Shown here one piece after another: positions 44,843-52,147 of a stretch of 64,000 nucleotides of DNA. Below the pieces are notes generated by a model. That model was not told the origin of the DNA, ran no database searches, and was given only the letters and a program-made list of their open reading frames with translations. The DNA is taken from positions 806,001 to 870,000 of the forward strand of contig NZ_CP071503.1 in assembly GCF_017354945.1 (NCBI RefSeq), written 5' to 3'. This DNA is from Shewanella avicenniae (GTDB taxonomy: Bacteria; Pseudomonadota; Gammaproteobacteria; Enterobacterales; Shewanellaceae). The position numbers and the translations under genes were made by a program. The stretch's first letter is position 1; the number at the start of each line of letters is the position of its first letter.

Positions 44843-45034
44843 ATGACCAGAAAACGATTTGTCGCTGGTGCTAAGTGCCCCAAATGTCAGGCGGTGGATA
44901 GCATAGTGTTGTTTAAAGAGAACGGCGTAGAAACCGTCGAGTGTGTCGAGTGTGACTACCGCGAACAGCAAACTGAACAGAAAGTCAGCCAAAAAGCCAA
45001 CGGCGAAGTGATCGGCTTATTCAAGCCTGATTAA
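44843..45034 (+). CDS. yheV: YheV-family zinc-ribbon protein
   Basis: A 63-residue protein with CPKC and CVECDY, four cysteines spaced as a zinc ribbon. MTRKRFVAGAKCPKCQAVDSI resembles E. coli YheV. Function unknown. It is divergent from yheS. It is the last gene of the crp-yhe block before the SMC-like operon. Confidence 0.9.
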   Translation: MTRKRFVAGAKCPKCQAVDSIVLFKENGVETVECVECDYREQQTEQKVSQKANGEVIGLFKPD

Positions 45035-45230: not shown

Positions 45231-48200
45231 ATGCCAAGCCTTATCAGAATTATACTGATTGATACTCACCTTCCTGGCGTTGTTGAACTGCGATTGGATG
45301 GCCACACCAATATTTGCGGTACTAACGCCTCAGGTAAAACCACATTACAGCGCTTAGTGCCAGTGTTTTATGGCGAATATCCGAGCCGTGTGGTGCCGTC
45401 CACTCGAGATAGTTTCGAGCGTTGGTATCTGCCCCATGAATCCAGTTACATCATCTATGAATACCAAAAGGCCGATGGCCTGCTGTATCAAGCGATATTA
45501 GCTTCAGCGGGTGATGGCAAAGGGGTGAACTATCGCTTTGCTGCCAAAGAGTTTGAACTAGAAGACTACGTGAAAAGCCGCAATGGTGATGCGATTTTAT
45601 GTCATCCCATGGCTGAGCTGCGGGGCGTATTTAGCAAACTCAATGTGCCATTTACCAACCAGCTCAACACCCGCGAATTTCGCGCCATCATTCAAAACGA
45701 TCGCAGCCTGCTAAGTACCGGCTCGAATCGCACTGAGCTACGCAATTATGCGCGTATCTTCTCGCTCTGTGATGCCGACCATTCGCTGCGCCACATCGAA
45801 AAATTGGCCAAAGCGGTGCATTCCAAAGAAGGCAAAATGGAGACCATCAAGTCGATGATTGCCGCCATTTTGGAAGAGGATGGAGTGAATCCGCCAACGT
45901 CCAGTATCAACCCGCAGCGGGTGGAAGCCTGGATCCGCGAAAGCCAACTGATTGCTGGTTTTGACAAAATCCGCCCAGAATTTGACAAGCTCGACCAAGA
46001 GTTTAATGAACTGCAAGCCGCTGAGTTGCGCTTGGCGAGCTTAGCGGGTGGCTACCGCCATGATGAGGTACTGCAAACCCAACGCGCCGAAGCCGAGCAA
46101 ACCCGCGCCAGCGAACTCAATCTGCAATTGAAAATGCTCGATGAGCAGTGGAAAGAGCAGCGCGACGAGTTGAGTTTGGATCTGTCCGCCGCCAAAGGCG
46201 ATGCCACGAATCTTGAGCATGAGCTGGACAGCATCGAGAACCAGCAAGCGGCCTATTTGGATGCCGATATTGAGCAAGCCGAAGCCAACTTAGAACAGCT
46301 GCCCCATTGGCGCAGCGACTTAGACAGCCTCGCCGAACGGCATAAACTGTTGACCGAAAAACACCAAGACGTGGAAGCCGCCTACAATGCGCGCCGCAGC
46401 AAAATTGGTGAGCAACTCAACCGCGAGCTGGAAAAACTGCATGCCGAACAAGACCTGCAGCGTGAAGCGCTGGATAAGCAAAAGCTGTTGGCCGGCGACG
46501 ATATTGCCGCGTTGGAGAGCTATTGGCGTGAGCAGTTGGATGCCGGAAAGCAGCGTCATCAGCAGCAACAATATGAATTAAAACTGCAAGCGGCGGAGCT
46601 GAAGCTCAAAGTCGATAGCGTTACTTACACCGAAGAGGAAAAGTTGGCGCTGGCGGTATTTGATGAGCGCATTGATCGCGCTGATGCCGAGCAAGAAGCC
46701 GCTAATGCCAAGGTGGAACGCCTCAGCAGTGATGAGCGTAAATTCAAGGCGGCACGTGAGCAAGCCAGTGAAGCGCTGCGATTGGCCTCGCTGCGTGTCA
46801 ATGATCGGCAAAATGAGCTGGAAGAGATCAAACAGATGCTGTTCCCGCAGTCACATACGCTGCTGGAATTTTTGCGCCGTGAACAACCGGGCTGGGAACA
46901 AGCGCTCGGCAAGGTGATCAACCCTGAGTTGCTGTATCGCACTGACTTGCATCCGGTAAGCGGCGATGCCACCGACACGCTATTTGGCTTACAGCTGGAT
47001 TTAAAAGCCATAGATTTGCCGGCCTATGCCGCCAGCGAAACCGAACTGCGTACTCGGTTAGCCAGTGCGGAAGAAGCGCTAAGTAACGCCAAAGAGTTGA
47101 AAGAGCAGGCCGAAGAACAACTGGTTGCTGCTAACAGCGCGTTGGAGCAGCTCAATCGTGAGTTGACCTTTGCTCGTACCAGCTACAAAAACTTGCGTGA
47201 CGATGTGCGCCGTCTCTTTGAAGAGCGTCGCAATACCCAAGCCGACATCAATAAAGCCTTGGCGGAACGTAAAGCGCAAGCGGGTAAACAGCTGACCCAA
47301 CTTGACCATGAGCTGAAGCAGCTCCATAACCAACATTTGGATTGGTTAGAGCAGCAAAAAGAGTTAGCGCTAGAAGCACGCATGGATAAACAGGTCTACT
47401 GGCAAGATGTGACTGGCGCCATTGAGCAGCAATTGCAGCAACTGCGCGACAGCATTAATCAACGCCGTGAGCGTGCCAAAGAGGAGCAAAAAGCCTGTGA
47501 AACTTGGTATCGCAACGAGCTTAAATCTCGCGGTATCAATGAAGACGACATTGTGGCGCTCAAACGTCAAATGCGTGATCTCGAAGGGCAGATTGCCAGC
47601 GCTGAACAGCGTCGTAGCGATGTATTGCGCTACGAAGATTGGTACCAGCATGTGTGGTTGGCGCGTAAACCTAAGTTAGTGACTGAGCTCGCCAAAGCTA
47701 AACAAGCGGTGGCCGAGCTGGATGCACAACTCAAACAGCGTGCGAATGAAGTGAAACACAAACGCCAAGAGCTGGAAGCGGCAAGACGTCAATCCGATGC
47801 GGCGCAGGTAGAAGCCTCAGAGTTCCTTACCAAACTGCGCAGTTTGCTGCGTAAGTTGACTGAGCTAAAACTGCCGAAAACCAACGAAGAAACGCCGGGC
47901 AGTTTGGGCGAGCGTTTACGTCAGGGCGAAGAGTTGCTGCTAAAGCGCGAGCACCTGCTGACCTCAGTAAAACAGTATGTCGATCATTTCGATCAAGTGA
48001 TTGCCAGCAAGTCAGGTTCAAGTTTGTCTGAAACTTGGGAGCGTTCGCGCGAAGGTGCCAGCTATATCACCGACAAAGGGATTCGCTTACTCGATTACCA
48101 TAAGTTAGTGCCTGAGTTGGAGCAGTTGCTCAACGTGATGGTGCCGCAATCAGTGACCGCACTGCGTGAACAAGGGCGGATCTTCGGCGTTGACTTAACC

Positions 48201-48908
48201 GCATTTTACGATGTGTTGGCCGATATTGACCGCCGCATTGCCTCGCAAAGCGCGCGCATTACCCGCGAAGTCGGCGAAGAGCTGTTCTTAGACGGTGTAT
48301 CCGATTCTGCGGTGCGGATCCGCTCACGCATCAGCGAGTTGGAATTCTGGCCAGAGCTGGAAACCTTTGTGAAGGCGTTTCGCGCCTGGAAGGCCGATGG
48401 CTTCAGTAAGTTGCCGGATGAACATTACACCGACAGCATGCGCCGTGCACTGGACATTATTGGTCGCTCAGCCTTAACCGGCGGCATTGCCAAGTTGCTC
48501 GAAATCGAATTGCGTTTGAAAGAGGGCAACTCGGACTTGGTGATCCGCACCGACCGCCAATTGAACGAATCCTCGAGTCACGGTATGGCCTACCTGATTT
48601 TGTGTAAGTTCTTGCTGGCGTTCACGCGCTTGTTGCGGGGTAAAGCCAACGTCACCATTCACTGGCCAATCGACGAACTCGGCACGTTGCACCACAGCAA
48701 CGTGAAGAAGATATTCGATGCCTGTGAAAACAACGATATCAGCGTGTTAGGTGCATTCCCTAACCCAGAATCAGAAGTGCTTGGGTTATTTGCCAACCGT
48801 TACATCATCAACAAGCAAACCCGTAAACTGCAAACGGTTAAGCCCAAGGCTGACCCCATTGCTGAACTGCTGAAACAACGTCAAGCCGCCGAAGGAGCCA
48901 TGCAATGA
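45231..48908 (+). CDS. SMC/Rad50-like ATPase (DUF3584-like), condensin-type locus
   Basis: A 1225-residue protein with a split ABC ATPase. The N-terminal head has Walker A CGTNASGKTT (about 29-38) in NICGTNASGKTTLQRLVPVFYG. Two long coiled coils (about 250-530 and 600-950, rich in Ala, Glu, Gln, Leu and Arg) flank a compact hinge-like region (about 530-600, with PGWEQALGKVINPELLYRTDL). The C-terminal head has a signature-like SSSHGMAYL (about 1114) and Walker B IHWPIDELGTLHH (Asp about 1148). Length and P-loop suggest the DUF3584 family (from memory). The ATG follows AAGGA. The stop overlaps the next gene (ATGA). By architecture it is the ATPase of a MukB/MksB/JetC-like complex; its exact family is uncertain. 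Confidence 0.85.
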   Translation: MPSLIRIILIDTHLPGVVELRLDGHTNICGTNASGKTTLQRLVPVFYGEYPSRVVPSTRDSFERWYLPHESSYIIYEYQKADGLLYQAILASAGDGKGVNYRFAAKEFELEDYVKSRNGDAILCHPMAELRGVFSKLNVPFTNQLNTREFRAIIQNDRSLLSTGSNRTELRNYARIFSLCDADHSLRHIEKLAKAVHSKEGKMETIKSMIAAILEEDGVNPPTSSINPQRVEAWIRESQLIAGFDKIRPEFDKLDQEFNELQAAELRLASLAGGYRHDEVLQTQRAEAEQTRASELNLQLKMLDEQWKEQRDELSLDLSAAKGDATNLEHELDSIENQQAAYLDADIEQAEANLEQLPHWRSDLDSLAERHKLLTEKHQDVEAAYNARRSKIGEQLNRELEKLHAEQDLQREALDKQKLLAGDDIAALESYWREQLDAGKQRHQQQQYELKLQAAELKLKVDSVTYTEEEKLALAVFDERIDRADAEQEAANAKVERLSSDERKFKAAREQASEALRLASLRVNDRQNELEEIKQMLFPQSHTLLEFLRREQPGWEQALGKVINPELLYRTDLHPVSGDATDTLFGLQLDLKAIDLPAYAASETELRTRLASAEEALSNAKELKEQAEEQLVAANSALEQLNRELTFARTSYKNLRDDVRRLFEERRNTQADINKALAERKAQAGKQLTQLDHELKQLHNQHLDWLEQQKELALEARMDKQVYWQDVTGAIEQQLQQLRDSINQRRERAKEEQKACETWYRNELKSRGINEDDIVALKRQMRDLEGQIASAEQRRSDVLRYEDWYQHVWLARKPKLVTELAKAKQAVAELDAQLKQRANEVKHKRQELEAARRQSDAAQVEASEFLTKLRSLLRKLTELKLPKTNEETPGSLGERLRQGEELLLKREHLLTSVKQYVDHFDQVIASKSGSSLSETWERSREGASYITDKGIRLLDYHKLVPELEQLLNVMVPQSVTALREQGRIFGVDLTAFYDVLADIDRRIASQSARITREVGEELFLDGVSDSAVRIRSRISELEFWPELETFVKAFRAWKADGFSKLPDEHYTDSMRRALDIIGRSALTGGIAKLLEIELRLKEGNSDLVIRTDRQLNESSSHGMAYLILCKFLLAFTRLLRGKANVTIHWPIDELGTLHHSNVKKIFDACENNDISVLGAFPNPESEVLGLFANRYIINKQTRKLQTVKPKADPIAELLKQRQAAEGAMQ

Positions 48909-49543
48909 GTGAAATAATCGCCACCGGTGAGCTGATTGAACGTCTATTACGCGGTGAGTTTATTTGTCGCACCACCTTTGAAGATGGTTGGCGCGCGTTA
49001 AAAAGTCCGGCCACCTTGGATAAAGTTGAAAGCTATCTGAATCAGATTAACCGCACCGTGGCTCAAGCTGCTGAAGGCGATGTGTTCTTCGCCGGTTATG
49101 TCAATTTAGGTGACCACGAACGCAAAGTGATTTCGGCGCAGTTTCGTGAGATCTGCCAGTCGCTGATCCCGCTGGTGGAATGGCTGGTGTTAGTGCAAGA
49201 GGCCAGTGGCCAAGATGCACCGCTGTCGCAAGGTTCGCCAGTGCGATTAACTGAGCTGCAAACCCGCATTGAAGATACCCCTGCGTTTCGTGAGCAGTTA
49301 GCCAAACTGAGCCAATATCGCTTATTTGGTTCCAGCGCCAGCAGCGTAGATGGCCAGATAAAACTGGTGTTCAAGCGCTTAGTCGAGCTGGGTTATCTGA
49401 TTAAGCCCAACCCCGAGAAGCAGATTTTTATCGCCACCGGTAAATTGGACTATCTCTACGAAGTGATCCGTTTTATTGATGAAACCGAAAGCCTGAGCTT
49501 GGAAGCGCAGGCAGAAACTGCCAGCCAACGGGAGTTGTTATGA
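48905..49543 (+). CDS. Small accessory subunit of the SMC-like locus, MksE/MukE-like by position
   Basis: A 212-residue protein with no signal peptide. It looks like tandem winged-helix: IATGELIERLLRGEFICRTTFEDGWRAL at the start and a second block at about 130-190 (FREQLAKLSQYRLFGS, LVFKRLVELGYLIKPNPEKQIFIATGKLDYLYEVIRFI). This size and fold match MukE/MksE/JetB, which bind the kleisin. It is fused by ATGA overlaps to the ATPase upstream and the third gene downstream. The assignment rests on context and fold pattern, not on clear homology. Confidence 0.7.
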   Translation: MSEIIATGELIERLLRGEFICRTTFEDGWRALKSPATLDKVESYLNQINRTVAQAAEGDVFFAGYVNLGDHERKVISAQFREICQSLIPLVEWLVLVQEASGQDAPLSQGSPVRLTELQTRIEDTPAFREQLAKLSQYRLFGSSASSVDGQIKLVFKRLVELGYLIKPNPEKQIFIATGKLDYLYEVIRFIDETESLSLEAQAETASQRELL

Positions 49544-50757
49544 GCAATAACCTGCATCAGTCAGGGGTTAAGCTGCTCAGGCTACTCGGCCGCAATGCCG
49601 AACTGGTTATGGACGCCTACTTAAGCGGCAGTGTTGATGAACAAGCGCTGGAACCGGCGACCGTCACTAAGCTGACCGAAAGCGGCATTCTGTGGCGCCC
49701 TGAACCTAACGAAGCCTTGCGGTTATCCCGCAATGTGCGTGCCTTGCTGGAAGATGGCCTCAAAGATGAGCGCAATCGCCAGATCAATGCCAACGTCGGC
49801 TCGGCATTAGCCACCATTAAAACGGTGGCAGGCCATTATCGTGAAGCGCGCGCCAGCGTTGATTACAGCGCGGCAGAAGCCTATCTTGCCGATCTTTCTG
49901 AGCAGGTGTACAGCTTTACCGAAAACCTGCGCTACTCAGTGCGGGTGTTGTGGGGTCGCATCAATAACGAGTTCGGTTATGTGGGCTCGCTCAGTGCCAA
50001 AATTCGCGAGAACGAGTTGGCGCAAAGCCAAGTGACCGAGCTGCTCAACGGCCTCGAGATGTTTGAATTTGCTGAATTGAGTGAATTAGCCGGTGATGTG
50101 CGTGAACTGCGTAAATTACTGGTCACGGGGCTGCAAGAAACCCTGACCAACTGCGCCCAAGAGCTAAGTGTGGTGCAAGGGCGCTTGCTGGAACTGTTAG
50201 GTCGCTTCCGTCAGATCCAAGGCCGAACCCGCTTGCTGAAAGGCTGGTTGTTATATACCGATCTGCACCCTGATTATGAAGTCGCCGACCATGTGGCGCA
50301 TAAGCAGATCCCTACCTTATTTAATCAAGCTGAAGCGCTACTCGCGCCAGCAGCGGTGGACGTACATAACTCGCAGCATGAGCAGGAGTTGATGCAGTTG
50401 GTGGCGGGCATTCGTAGCATCAGCCGCGAGCAGCAACAAACCGTGGTGGCCGAGCCAATGCCAGTAGAAGTCTCGGCGGCCGAAGAGTTTGATATTCCCG
50501 ATAATCCATTGAAACAGGCGGTAGAAGCTTATTTCTGTGCTGTGATTGAGTCAGGGCAGAATCAGTCGGCGCTTGATTACCTCTCTGACAATGGCCTGCA
50601 GTGGGATCGCGAAGCTTGGCTGTTCCAAGTTATTGGCGGTTTTGAAGGCCTAAGCGACGAGCATAAGCAGTTTTTTGCGCTGGAGCCATTAGGTCATAAG
50701 CATGAAGTTTATGACGGCAACTTTATTATTCAGGATGTGGAAATCGGCCTGCGCTAA
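49540..50757 (+). CDS. Kleisin-like third subunit of the SMC-like locus, MksF/MukF-like by position
   Basis: A 405-residue, mainly helical, acidic protein. A probable winged helix at the N-terminus (about 1-70, GVKLLRLLGRNAELVMDAYL, LTESGILWRP) is followed by a helical middle (about 70-260, AEAYLADLSEQVYSFTENLRYSVRVLWGRINNEFGYV) and a C-terminal domain (about 310-405) reached through a Val/Glu-rich linker. This is the layout of MukF/MksF. It lacks Toprim or JetD-like acidic motifs, so it is not a Wadjet nuclease. Last gene of the operon; a 10-base hairpin follows at 50807-50833. Confidence 0.68.
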   Translation: MSNNLHQSGVKLLRLLGRNAELVMDAYLSGSVDEQALEPATVTKLTESGILWRPEPNEALRLSRNVRALLEDGLKDERNRQINANVGSALATIKTVAGHYREARASVDYSAAEAYLADLSEQVYSFTENLRYSVRVLWGRINNEFGYVGSLSAKIRENELAQSQVTELLNGLEMFEFAELSELAGDVRELRKLLVTGLQETLTNCAQELSVVQGRLLELLGRFRQIQGRTRLLKGWLLYTDLHPDYEVADHVAHKQIPTLFNQAEALLAPAAVDVHNSQHEQELMQLVAGIRSISREQQQTVVAEPMPVEVSAAEEFDIPDNPLKQAVEAYFCAVIESGQNQSALDYLSDNGLQWDREAWLFQVIGGFEGLSDEHKQFFALEPLGHKHEVYDGNFIIQDVEIGLR

Positions 50758-50806
50758 TCGGTTGTGATGTCACTGACACCATCTGCAGCAAACCGGTGAA
50801 ACTTTG

Positions 50807-50833
50807 GTTCGGCCACTTAAAATGTGGCCGAAC
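50807..50833 (+). terminator. Hairpin after the SMC-like operon
   Basis: GTTCGGCCAC / GTGGCCGAAC is a 10-base perfect stem with a 7-base loop, 50 bases after the operon. It lacks a T run, so termination is uncertain. The rest of the gap 50758-51007 shows no gene. Confidence 0.45.
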
Positions 50834-51007
50834 TCAGTTAACGAGTGCGAAGTGATGGTCTGTTTTCGCCGCCTATGTTAGAAAATGCGGCGCAAAATTT
50901 TAGCCGAATTGTCACGCGACAATATCGCGTAATGGGCGTATAACGTGCGCTAGTAATTGTTTAGCAATGATTGAACTAGCAACGATTTAGAACATAAGGA
51001 TTGAGTA

Positions 51008-52147
51008 ATGCTGAGACGTGAGTTTTTGAAAGGTGCAGCGCTAATGTCGGCTGCTGGTATGGCTGCGCCGATGATGGCAAATGCGGCAGTATCAACATCA
51101 AGCGAGCTGAGCGCTGTGGCTGGCCGTCGTCGTTTTGTGTTGGCGCAGACCTATGACGTTAAGCCTCCGGTAGGTTCAGAAGGGAAGGTGAACCTGTGGA
51201 TCCCGCTGCCTGAAAATACCGAGTTTCAAAAACTGAACCATCTGGATGTGAAAGGCAATCACGATGATGCGTACGTCACCATGGAAAACAACTACGGCGC
51301 CAAGGCGTTGTTGGTGACCTGGGCTGATTCTAACAAGCCAATGAAGCTGGATGTGGCGTTGGATATTTCTACCGAAGATTGGGAACCAATGGCCAGCGGC
51401 GCTTTGGCACTGTATCGCACTCCAAGTAAAATTGAATACCCAGCAGAAGTGCAGCGCTATTTGGCGCCAACGGCGCATATTCCTACCGATGGCATTGTCA
51501 AAGCAACCGCAGATAAAATCGTGGGTAGTGAAACTGACCCGCTGAAAAAAGCTCACAAGATCTACCTGTGGGTGAGTGAAAACATGGAACGTGACGACAG
51601 CGTTATTGGCTGTGGTCAGGGGGATGTCCGTGCCATTTTGGAAAGCGGTAAGCTCGGTGGTAAGTGTACCGACATCAACTCAGTTTTTGTGGCGTTGGCG
51701 CGTGCCGTTGGGTTACCTGCGCGTGAGATGTTTGGTCTGCGTTTGGGCCAAGGCATCAAAATGGGTAAATACTCTTCTGCGTTTGGCAGTGCTGATGCTA
51801 ACGGCGTTGCCAAAGAAACAGGTGGTCAACACTGCCGCGCCATGTTCTTCTTGGCGGGCTTTGGTTGGGTACCAGTTGACCCAGCAGACGTAACCAAAAT
51901 GCGTTTAAAAGAACATATGAAACACAGCGATGCCGATGTGCAAGCGGTGAACCAATACCTGTTTGGTAACTGGGAAATGAACTGGGTTGGTTTTAACTAC
52001 GCTCGTGACTTCGAGTTGTCACCAGCACCTGAACAAGGCGCAATGAACAACTTCGGTTATCCCTATGCTGAAGTGGATGGCGATCCACTGAACTACTACG
52101 ATGCAAAAGCCTTTGCCTATGACTATCGCTCAACCGAGCAACGCTAA
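51008..52147 (+). CDS. Tat-exported transglutaminase-like protein
   Basis: The N-terminus MLRREFLKGAALMSAAGMAAPMMANA is a Tat signal (RREFLKG), so the protein is exported folded. The transglutaminase-like domain (about 150-300) has the Cys-His-Asp triad in GGKCTDINSVFVALARAVGLPAR, GGQHCRAMFF and VPVDPADV. An upstream beta domain (about 45-140) precedes it. Proteins like this are often peptidases or amidases rather than cross-linkers. 379 residues. Its 3' end overlaps the MerT-like gene by 29 bases, tying it to that pair. Confidence 0.9.
   Translation: MLRREFLKGAALMSAAGMAAPMMANAAVSTSSELSAVAGRRRFVLAQTYDVKPPVGSEGKVNLWIPLPENTEFQKLNHLDVKGNHDDAYVTMENNYGAKALLVTWADSNKPMKLDVALDISTEDWEPMASGALALYRTPSKIEYPAEVQRYLAPTAHIPTDGIVKATADKIVGSETDPLKKAHKIYLWVSENMERDDSVIGCGQGDVRAILESGKLGGKCTDINSVFVALARAVGLPAREMFGLRLGQGIKMGKYSSAFGSADANGVAKETGGQHCRAMFFLAGFGWVPVDPADVTKMRLKEHMKHSDADVQAVNQYLFGNWEMNWVGFNYARDFELSPAPEQGAMNNFGYPYAEVDGDPLNYYDAKAFAYDYRSTEQR

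Follow-up and report, generated by a model that had tools for sequence, protein, structure and literature searches.

Three adjoining genes of Shewanella avicenniae encode an SMC-like ATPase, a kite subunit and a kleisin subunit, that is, the parts of a condensin, and no nuclease gene follows them. The question raised by this locus is whether such a trio serves the folding of the chromosome or the surveillance of foreign DNA, two roles that an earlier note, made from the sequence alone, had left side by side. We analysed the trio in its window (here, the whole stretch of 64,000 nt that was studied, positions 806,001 to 870,000 of NZ_CP071503.1), which is part of a closed 4.2 Mb genome, and we compared it with related loci on chromosomes, plasmids and a phage. 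From these comparisons we infer that the trio probably descends from a Wadjet/Mks-like system with the ATPase gene first, and that it would have lost its nuclease and been kept as a core second condensin.

The three genes and their products

The three ORFs of the earlier note were reproduced with exactly the same coordinates (Table 1), and the ORF check of the window found the genes linked by 4-base ATGA overlaps at both junctions. Their order over positions 45231-50757 is ATPase-kite-kleisin, i.e., B-E-F in Mks terms, and the gene on the 3′ side, which starts at 51008, encodes a transglutaminase-domain protein (window ORFs and Pfam). No nuclease gene was present directly after the trio in the window; both the ATPase-first order and the lack of a JetD-type gene behind it, as claimed earlier, were borne out by the window ORFs. 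Promoter and terminator scans at the trio gave signals no more than in shuffled sequences. Just upstream of the ATPase gene, at 44843-45034 on the + strand, there is a 63 aa zinc-ribbon-like ORF (CPKC...CVEC), which we take to be YheV-like.

Table 1. Positions in the window of the three genes and of the site behind them
Feature	Position	Strand	Length and basis
SMC/MukB/JetC-like ATPase, PF12128 (DUF3584)	45231..48908	+	1225 aa; Pfam, motifs
Kite subunit (MksE/JetB/MukE-like tandem winged helix)	48905..49543	+	212 aa; MksE profile, fold
Kleisin subunit (MukF/JetA-like)	49540..50757	+	405 aa; fold of predicted model
DUF7281 site of relatives, vacant here	50758..51007	.	250 bases before next gene

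The ATPase matched PF12128, the domain that PADLOC ascribes to JetC, over the whole Pfam model (1549.7 bits), and its direct matches to the JetC models of PADLOC were weak (best 3.5e-4). Its nearest named relative is that of Shewanella mangrovi, with 95% identity. The motifs are intact (Walker A GTNASGKTT, signature SSSHGMAYL and Walker B PIDELG). They had been described as unlike those of MukB or SMC, and the sequences are indeed present as described, but they are lineage-specific forms of ordinary motifs: in the alignment all three are kept in relatives down to ~21-25% identity, and more distant family members have GTNGAGKT as Walker A. In a tree of the ATPase heads, the ATPase-first proteins formed one group (support 93), separate from type I JetC, MukB, the Mks ATPases of 917-924 aa and the Bacteroidota relatives, and the window clade stood beside a cyanophage protein and among plasmid proteins; the branches of this tree are long, so that the deep joins are uncertain. 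By analogy with its relatives, the trio should bind DNA and extrude DNA loops with ATP.

The window kite matched the MksE profile PF21980 with 23.4 bits (E 8.4e-5), below the curated cut-off of 27 bits, and among the second proteins of the family an MksE match was obtained for 35/38 at E<0.01 and one to DUF4194, the JetB domain, for 16/38. A structure model of the kite (pLDDT 66.5) had as best Foldseek matches the JetB proteins of the E. coli and P. aeruginosa Wadjet systems (2.4e-5, for 8as8_C, and 3.5e-5; VIA Z 10.1 and 9.8, respectively), with MukE next.

For the kleisin, sequence-profile searches against Pfam, PADLOC and solved structures gave no match, and a Pfam match to L35Ae was rejected as chance noise; sequence searches of the solved structures with profiles of all three proteins returned just chance or coiled-coil matches. 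The predicted model of the kleisin (pLDDT 77.5, pTM 0.43) has a winged-helix region at the N-terminus, a long helical part in the middle, then a disordered linker and, at the C-terminus, another winged helix, an arrangement like that of MukF/JetA. Foldseek ranks 1 to 6 were all MukF (the top matches include 7nz2_C1, 9gm7_C, 3euh_B and 1t98_A), with JetA at ranks 10 and 14. VIA superposed the model on MukF 9gm9_D with Z 12.7 (2.9 A over 145 residues), and Z against MukF reached 13.4; the helical part also resembles unrelated helical bundles. Judged by its predicted fold alone, the third protein is probably a kleisin of the MukF/JetA kind. The SMC-kite-kleisin composition proposed earlier is therefore supported by the JetB/MukE and MukF/JetA fold matches and by the MksE profile, and the second and third proteins, rather than falling in unrelated families, fall in the expected kite and kleisin ones.

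Occurrence and neighbourhood

The ATPase was found in 117/117 Shewanella species sampled, the window genome included. Class-wide, 17 of 369 genomes had any match to it, and 10 had one above the cut-off. All three genes were present together and ATPase-first in 78/78 named loci, which belong to Shewanella, Alteromonas and its kin, Ferrimonas, Paraferrimonas, Pseudomonas, Stutzerimonas, Azotobacter and Thiocystis; in one of them (L109) the ATPase frame is split in two. The same order was found in every full-length locus read in the genus and in the order, and in no full-length locus did we see the ATPase without the other two genes, an occurrence that the earlier note had named as evidence against the grouping. 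Since the trio is complete and in the same order in all the named loci, the grouping of the three genes is not due to chance.

In the usual Shewanella slot an SDF symporter gene lies downstream and a sodium:alanine symporter or DUF3581 gene is often upstream, and in Alteromonas the trio is flanked by another fixed gene set. Among the genomes searched, yheS adjoins the trio only in the window genome and in a close relative (G005). Thus, of the earlier description of the locus as core genome beside the yhe genes, the core-genome residence holds throughout the genus and the yhe context is local to these two genomes. In two Shewanella species (L058 and L059; cf. L046) the slot between the sodium:alanine symporter and the SDF symporter is occupied by a four-gene version, ~25% identical to the trio, which is an apparent in-place swap of the trio for a distant homologue.

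A fourth gene in relatives

In many relatives a gene of ~290 aa lies directly 3′ of the kleisin gene, and its product is a member of DUF7281 (PF23947, with E values as low as 4e-42). Searched against solved structures, the DUF7281 profile matched Topo VI-A (2e-4) and Spo11 (3e-4), and members of the family matched the JetD models of PADLOC, with E down to 3e-9. Across 25 diverse members, residues E142, N143, D205, D207, P208 and G210 do not vary, a pattern of the Toprim type E...DxDPxG. From its sequence, DUF7281 is likely a short, JetD/Topo VI-A-like Toprim protein, and a putative nuclease of the JetD type. A literature search on DUF7281 found no paper, and the family has no described function; a likely one, that of a JetD-like nuclease subunit, can now be proposed for it.

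In the 117 Shewanella species, DUF7281 was detected in 57, in 55 of which it adjoins the ATPase locus downstream, and was undetected in 60, one of which is the window genome; it stands next to the trio in 27/78 named loci. In two of the Shewanella genomes (G128 and G129) there is an additional, divergent PF12128 ATPase, which is adjoined by a DUF7281 gene of its own. Profile searches found neither DUF7281 nor JetD_C (PF09983) anywhere in the window genome, and a profile scan downstream of the window kleisin gene found no nuclease remnant. The earlier view of the operon as a trio without a nuclease holds for the window and its genome, but the trio is not a complete system of its own; it represents a four-gene system, found in 55 of the 117 congeners, in a state without the nuclease.

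A DUF7281 gene also occurs outside the ATPase-first arrangement. In one genome (G410, locus L180), a kleisin-first Mks operon (MksE 8e-35, ATPase of 917 aa) is followed by a DUF7281 gene of 287 aa, which means that the nuclease serves both gene arrangements and suggests that outside the ATPase-first group, too, DUF7281 is a partner of the MksG kind.

We read 18 plasmid or phage copies, one of which is a fragment, and a DUF7281-like gene was present in all the 17 others. The order was ATPase-kite-kleisin-nuclease in 15 of these 17, with the kite before the ATPase in two Bacteroidota plasmids. A scan of viral contigs found no relatives; one phage record, found separately, is that of the cyanophage Dfl-JY45 of Dolichospermum (PP438435.1, 86907-93262), in which the full four-gene operon is annotated as hypothetical throughout and the ATPase is sister to the Shewanella/Alteromonas clade. 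Four of the plasmid copies (L157, L171, L164 and L158) are near RES/Xre toxin-antitoxin genes, a DNA methyltransferase or recombinases, surroundings that are defence-like and unlike the chromosomal slots. A further four-gene copy, on an IncC plasmid (NZ_OR497351.1), neighbours Tn7-like transposition genes and has an IS256-like element inserted in its ATPase gene. The majority of the plasmid copies fall in a divergent branch whose chromosomal members have the nuclease as well, hence mobility and nuclease retention are confounded.

Comparison with Wadjet, MksBEF and MukBEF

Like the four-gene relatives of the trio, Wadjet (JetABCD/MksBEFG, types I-III) has an SMC-like ATPase, a kite, a kleisin and a Toprim nuclease in one operon, and the second protein has its best fold match in JetB. 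The order differs, being kleisin-kite-ATPase-nuclease in Wadjet and ATPase-kite-kleisin(-nuclease), i.e., C-B-A-D, in all the named loci of the trio lineage, whose nuclease, unlike that of Wadjet, is the short DUF7281 protein, missing in the window. Of the PADLOC Wadjet models, none matched the window kite or kleisin, and only those of JetC matched, weakly, the ATPase; to go by the proteins tested, the lineage is not called as Wadjet by the PADLOC models. Literature searches found no paper on a 'type IV' Wadjet and, in the open-access literature, which leaves out the founding MksBEF paper, no paper on the ATPase-first lineage. These results point to plasmids and a phage as carriers of a Wadjet-like lineage that the PADLOC models left unrecognised in the proteins tested.

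With MukBEF the trio shares a kleisin whose fold is nearest to MukF and a kite near to MukE, but its ATPase is shorter (1225 aa versus 1488). The N-terminal domain of MukB (PF04310) was found neither in the window genome nor in any of 24 genomes of the genus, and we rejected the identification of the trio as MukBEF because of the absence of this domain from the genome. MksBEF of the P. aeruginosa type resembles the trio in being a second condensin beside SMC (PMC7485682) and in having no nuclease, and the kites of the trio family mostly match the MksE profile, that of the window below the cut-off. The Mks operon has the order F-E-B, as in mksFEBG (PMC10123090), and compared with the kleisin-first Mks loci read, the trio is ATPase-first, has an ATPase of 1225 aa instead of ~917 and stands on a separate branch of the head tree.

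Loss or gain of the nuclease and alternative explanations

The changes of nuclease state were counted on a tree of 88 concatenated trios. There were at least 11 (9 counting well-supported branches only), or 19 if the nuclease could only be lost and never regained, a count that by itself cannot separate gain from loss. In carriers the nuclease gene is always at the same junction, and its divergence rises with trio divergence (Spearman 0.87, 27 loci), the pattern that joint inheritance would give. At one nuclease-less locus (L033), 28 codons from the start and ~40 from the end of the nuclease gene are left; compared with the sister locus L066, where the gene is intact and the ATPase 97.6% identical, ~0.67 kb is missing. 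In another genome (G115) a stop interrupts the nuclease frame. A recognisable remnant was present in 1/65 nuclease-less loci scanned. We also estimated omega from close pairs, many of which have dS near or above 1, so that single values are rough: for the ATPase, kite and kleisin it was mostly 0.01-0.04 (about 0.02) in pairs lacking the nuclease and similar in pairs of carriers, and for the nuclease 0.12-0.32. No relaxed selection after nuclease loss was visible for any trio gene in this pairwise rate comparison, and the strong purifying selection in loci without the nuclease indicates that the function of the trio outlives it.

The tracked divergence, the constant junction, the remnant in L033 and the broken copy in G115 make loss a better reading than gain, and by parsimony the nuclease would have been lost repeatedly from the trio, even if the direction is not proven for each branch. 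The opposite history, in which an ancestral chromosomal condensin repeatedly acquired the DUF7281 nuclease, would need only about 11 changes, gains being allowed, instead of 19 pure losses, and it agrees with the much faster evolution of the nuclease; we nevertheless think it improbable, since the gene is always at the same junction and its divergence tracks that of the trio, decaying copies exist, and the nuclease is present in the plasmid and phage lineages and in most of the outgroups. About as doubtful is that the trio is the orthologue of P. aeruginosa MksBEF with re-ordered genes. The MksE matches of the second proteins and the coexistence of MksBEF with SMC in P. aeruginosa (PMC7485682) speak for it, whereas the kleisin-first Mks ATPases read are of 917-924 aa and lie outside the ATPase-first clade of the head tree, the MksE match in the window is below the curated cut-off, and an Mks locus (L180) can carry a DUF7281 gene of its own. 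As L180 keeps this gene, nuclease loss looks independent in the ATPase-first and the Mks lineages.

The trio could also still act in defence without its nuclease, by capturing or compacting invading circles uncut or by calling on an unlinked host nuclease. Close relatives with all four genes occur on plasmids and in a cyanophage, plasmid restriction is known for homologous systems (PMC10123090, PMC10586767), and the replacement of the trio by the 25%-identical four-gene version in one Shewanella slot is what would be expected of defence genes. Presence in every Shewanella species sampled, flanks that are constant within a genus and purifying selection that is strong and uniform are, however, unlike a defence locus, the nuclease is required for plasmid restriction in C. 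glutamicum (PMC10123090), and the window genome has no alternative JetD. We therefore consider a defensive role unlikely, if somewhat less so than the two preceding alternatives; for surveillance through an unlinked host nuclease, as suggested by the earlier note, we found no positive evidence.

Proposed function of the trio

In the preferred reading, that of a nuclease-less descendant kept as a second condensin, the trio would form a complex of two ATPase arms, with the kleisin and two kite subunits as the bridge between their heads, and its ancestor would be a four-gene ATPase-kite-kleisin-nuclease system working like Wadjet. The motor of that system would extrude DNA and, on small circles, would activate the Toprim nuclease, the short DUF7281 protein; the four-gene form should thus extrude DNA and cut small circles as Wadjet does (PMC10586767, PMC10123090), and the trio alone should extrude without cutting. 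In the window lineage, and many times in Shewanella and the Alteromonadaceae, the nuclease gene would have been lost and the motor kept. A chromosomal role is most likely for the present trio, which would work on the chromosome alongside SMC, as a second condensin. The window genome has a canonical SMC of 1153 aa, and a strong SMC match was obtained in 15/15 genus members tested; with SMC present and MukB absent, the trio would be the second condensin.

A wider interpretation, plausible but held with more hesitation, is that in Shewanella and the Alteromonadaceae a mobile plasmid-cutting machine, of an ATPase-first Wadjet type with DUF7281, was repeatedly converted into a housekeeping condensin through loss of the nuclease. 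The instances of loss would be many, independent and partly recent, and the step would be that proposed for the origin of MksBEF and MukBEF; according to the proposal of a review (PMC10586767), Wadjet gave rise to MksBEF when JetD was lost, and MukBEF likewise came from Wadjet. As sister Shewanella species differ by the nuclease alone and the motor is universal in the genus, the switch from defence to chromosome upkeep could be tested in matched strains.

As regards MukB, four relatives that have it were all without the trio, and the three of them that were tested were also without SMC; with only these four MukB genomes, it is no more than suggestive that the trio and MukB exclude each other among relatives.
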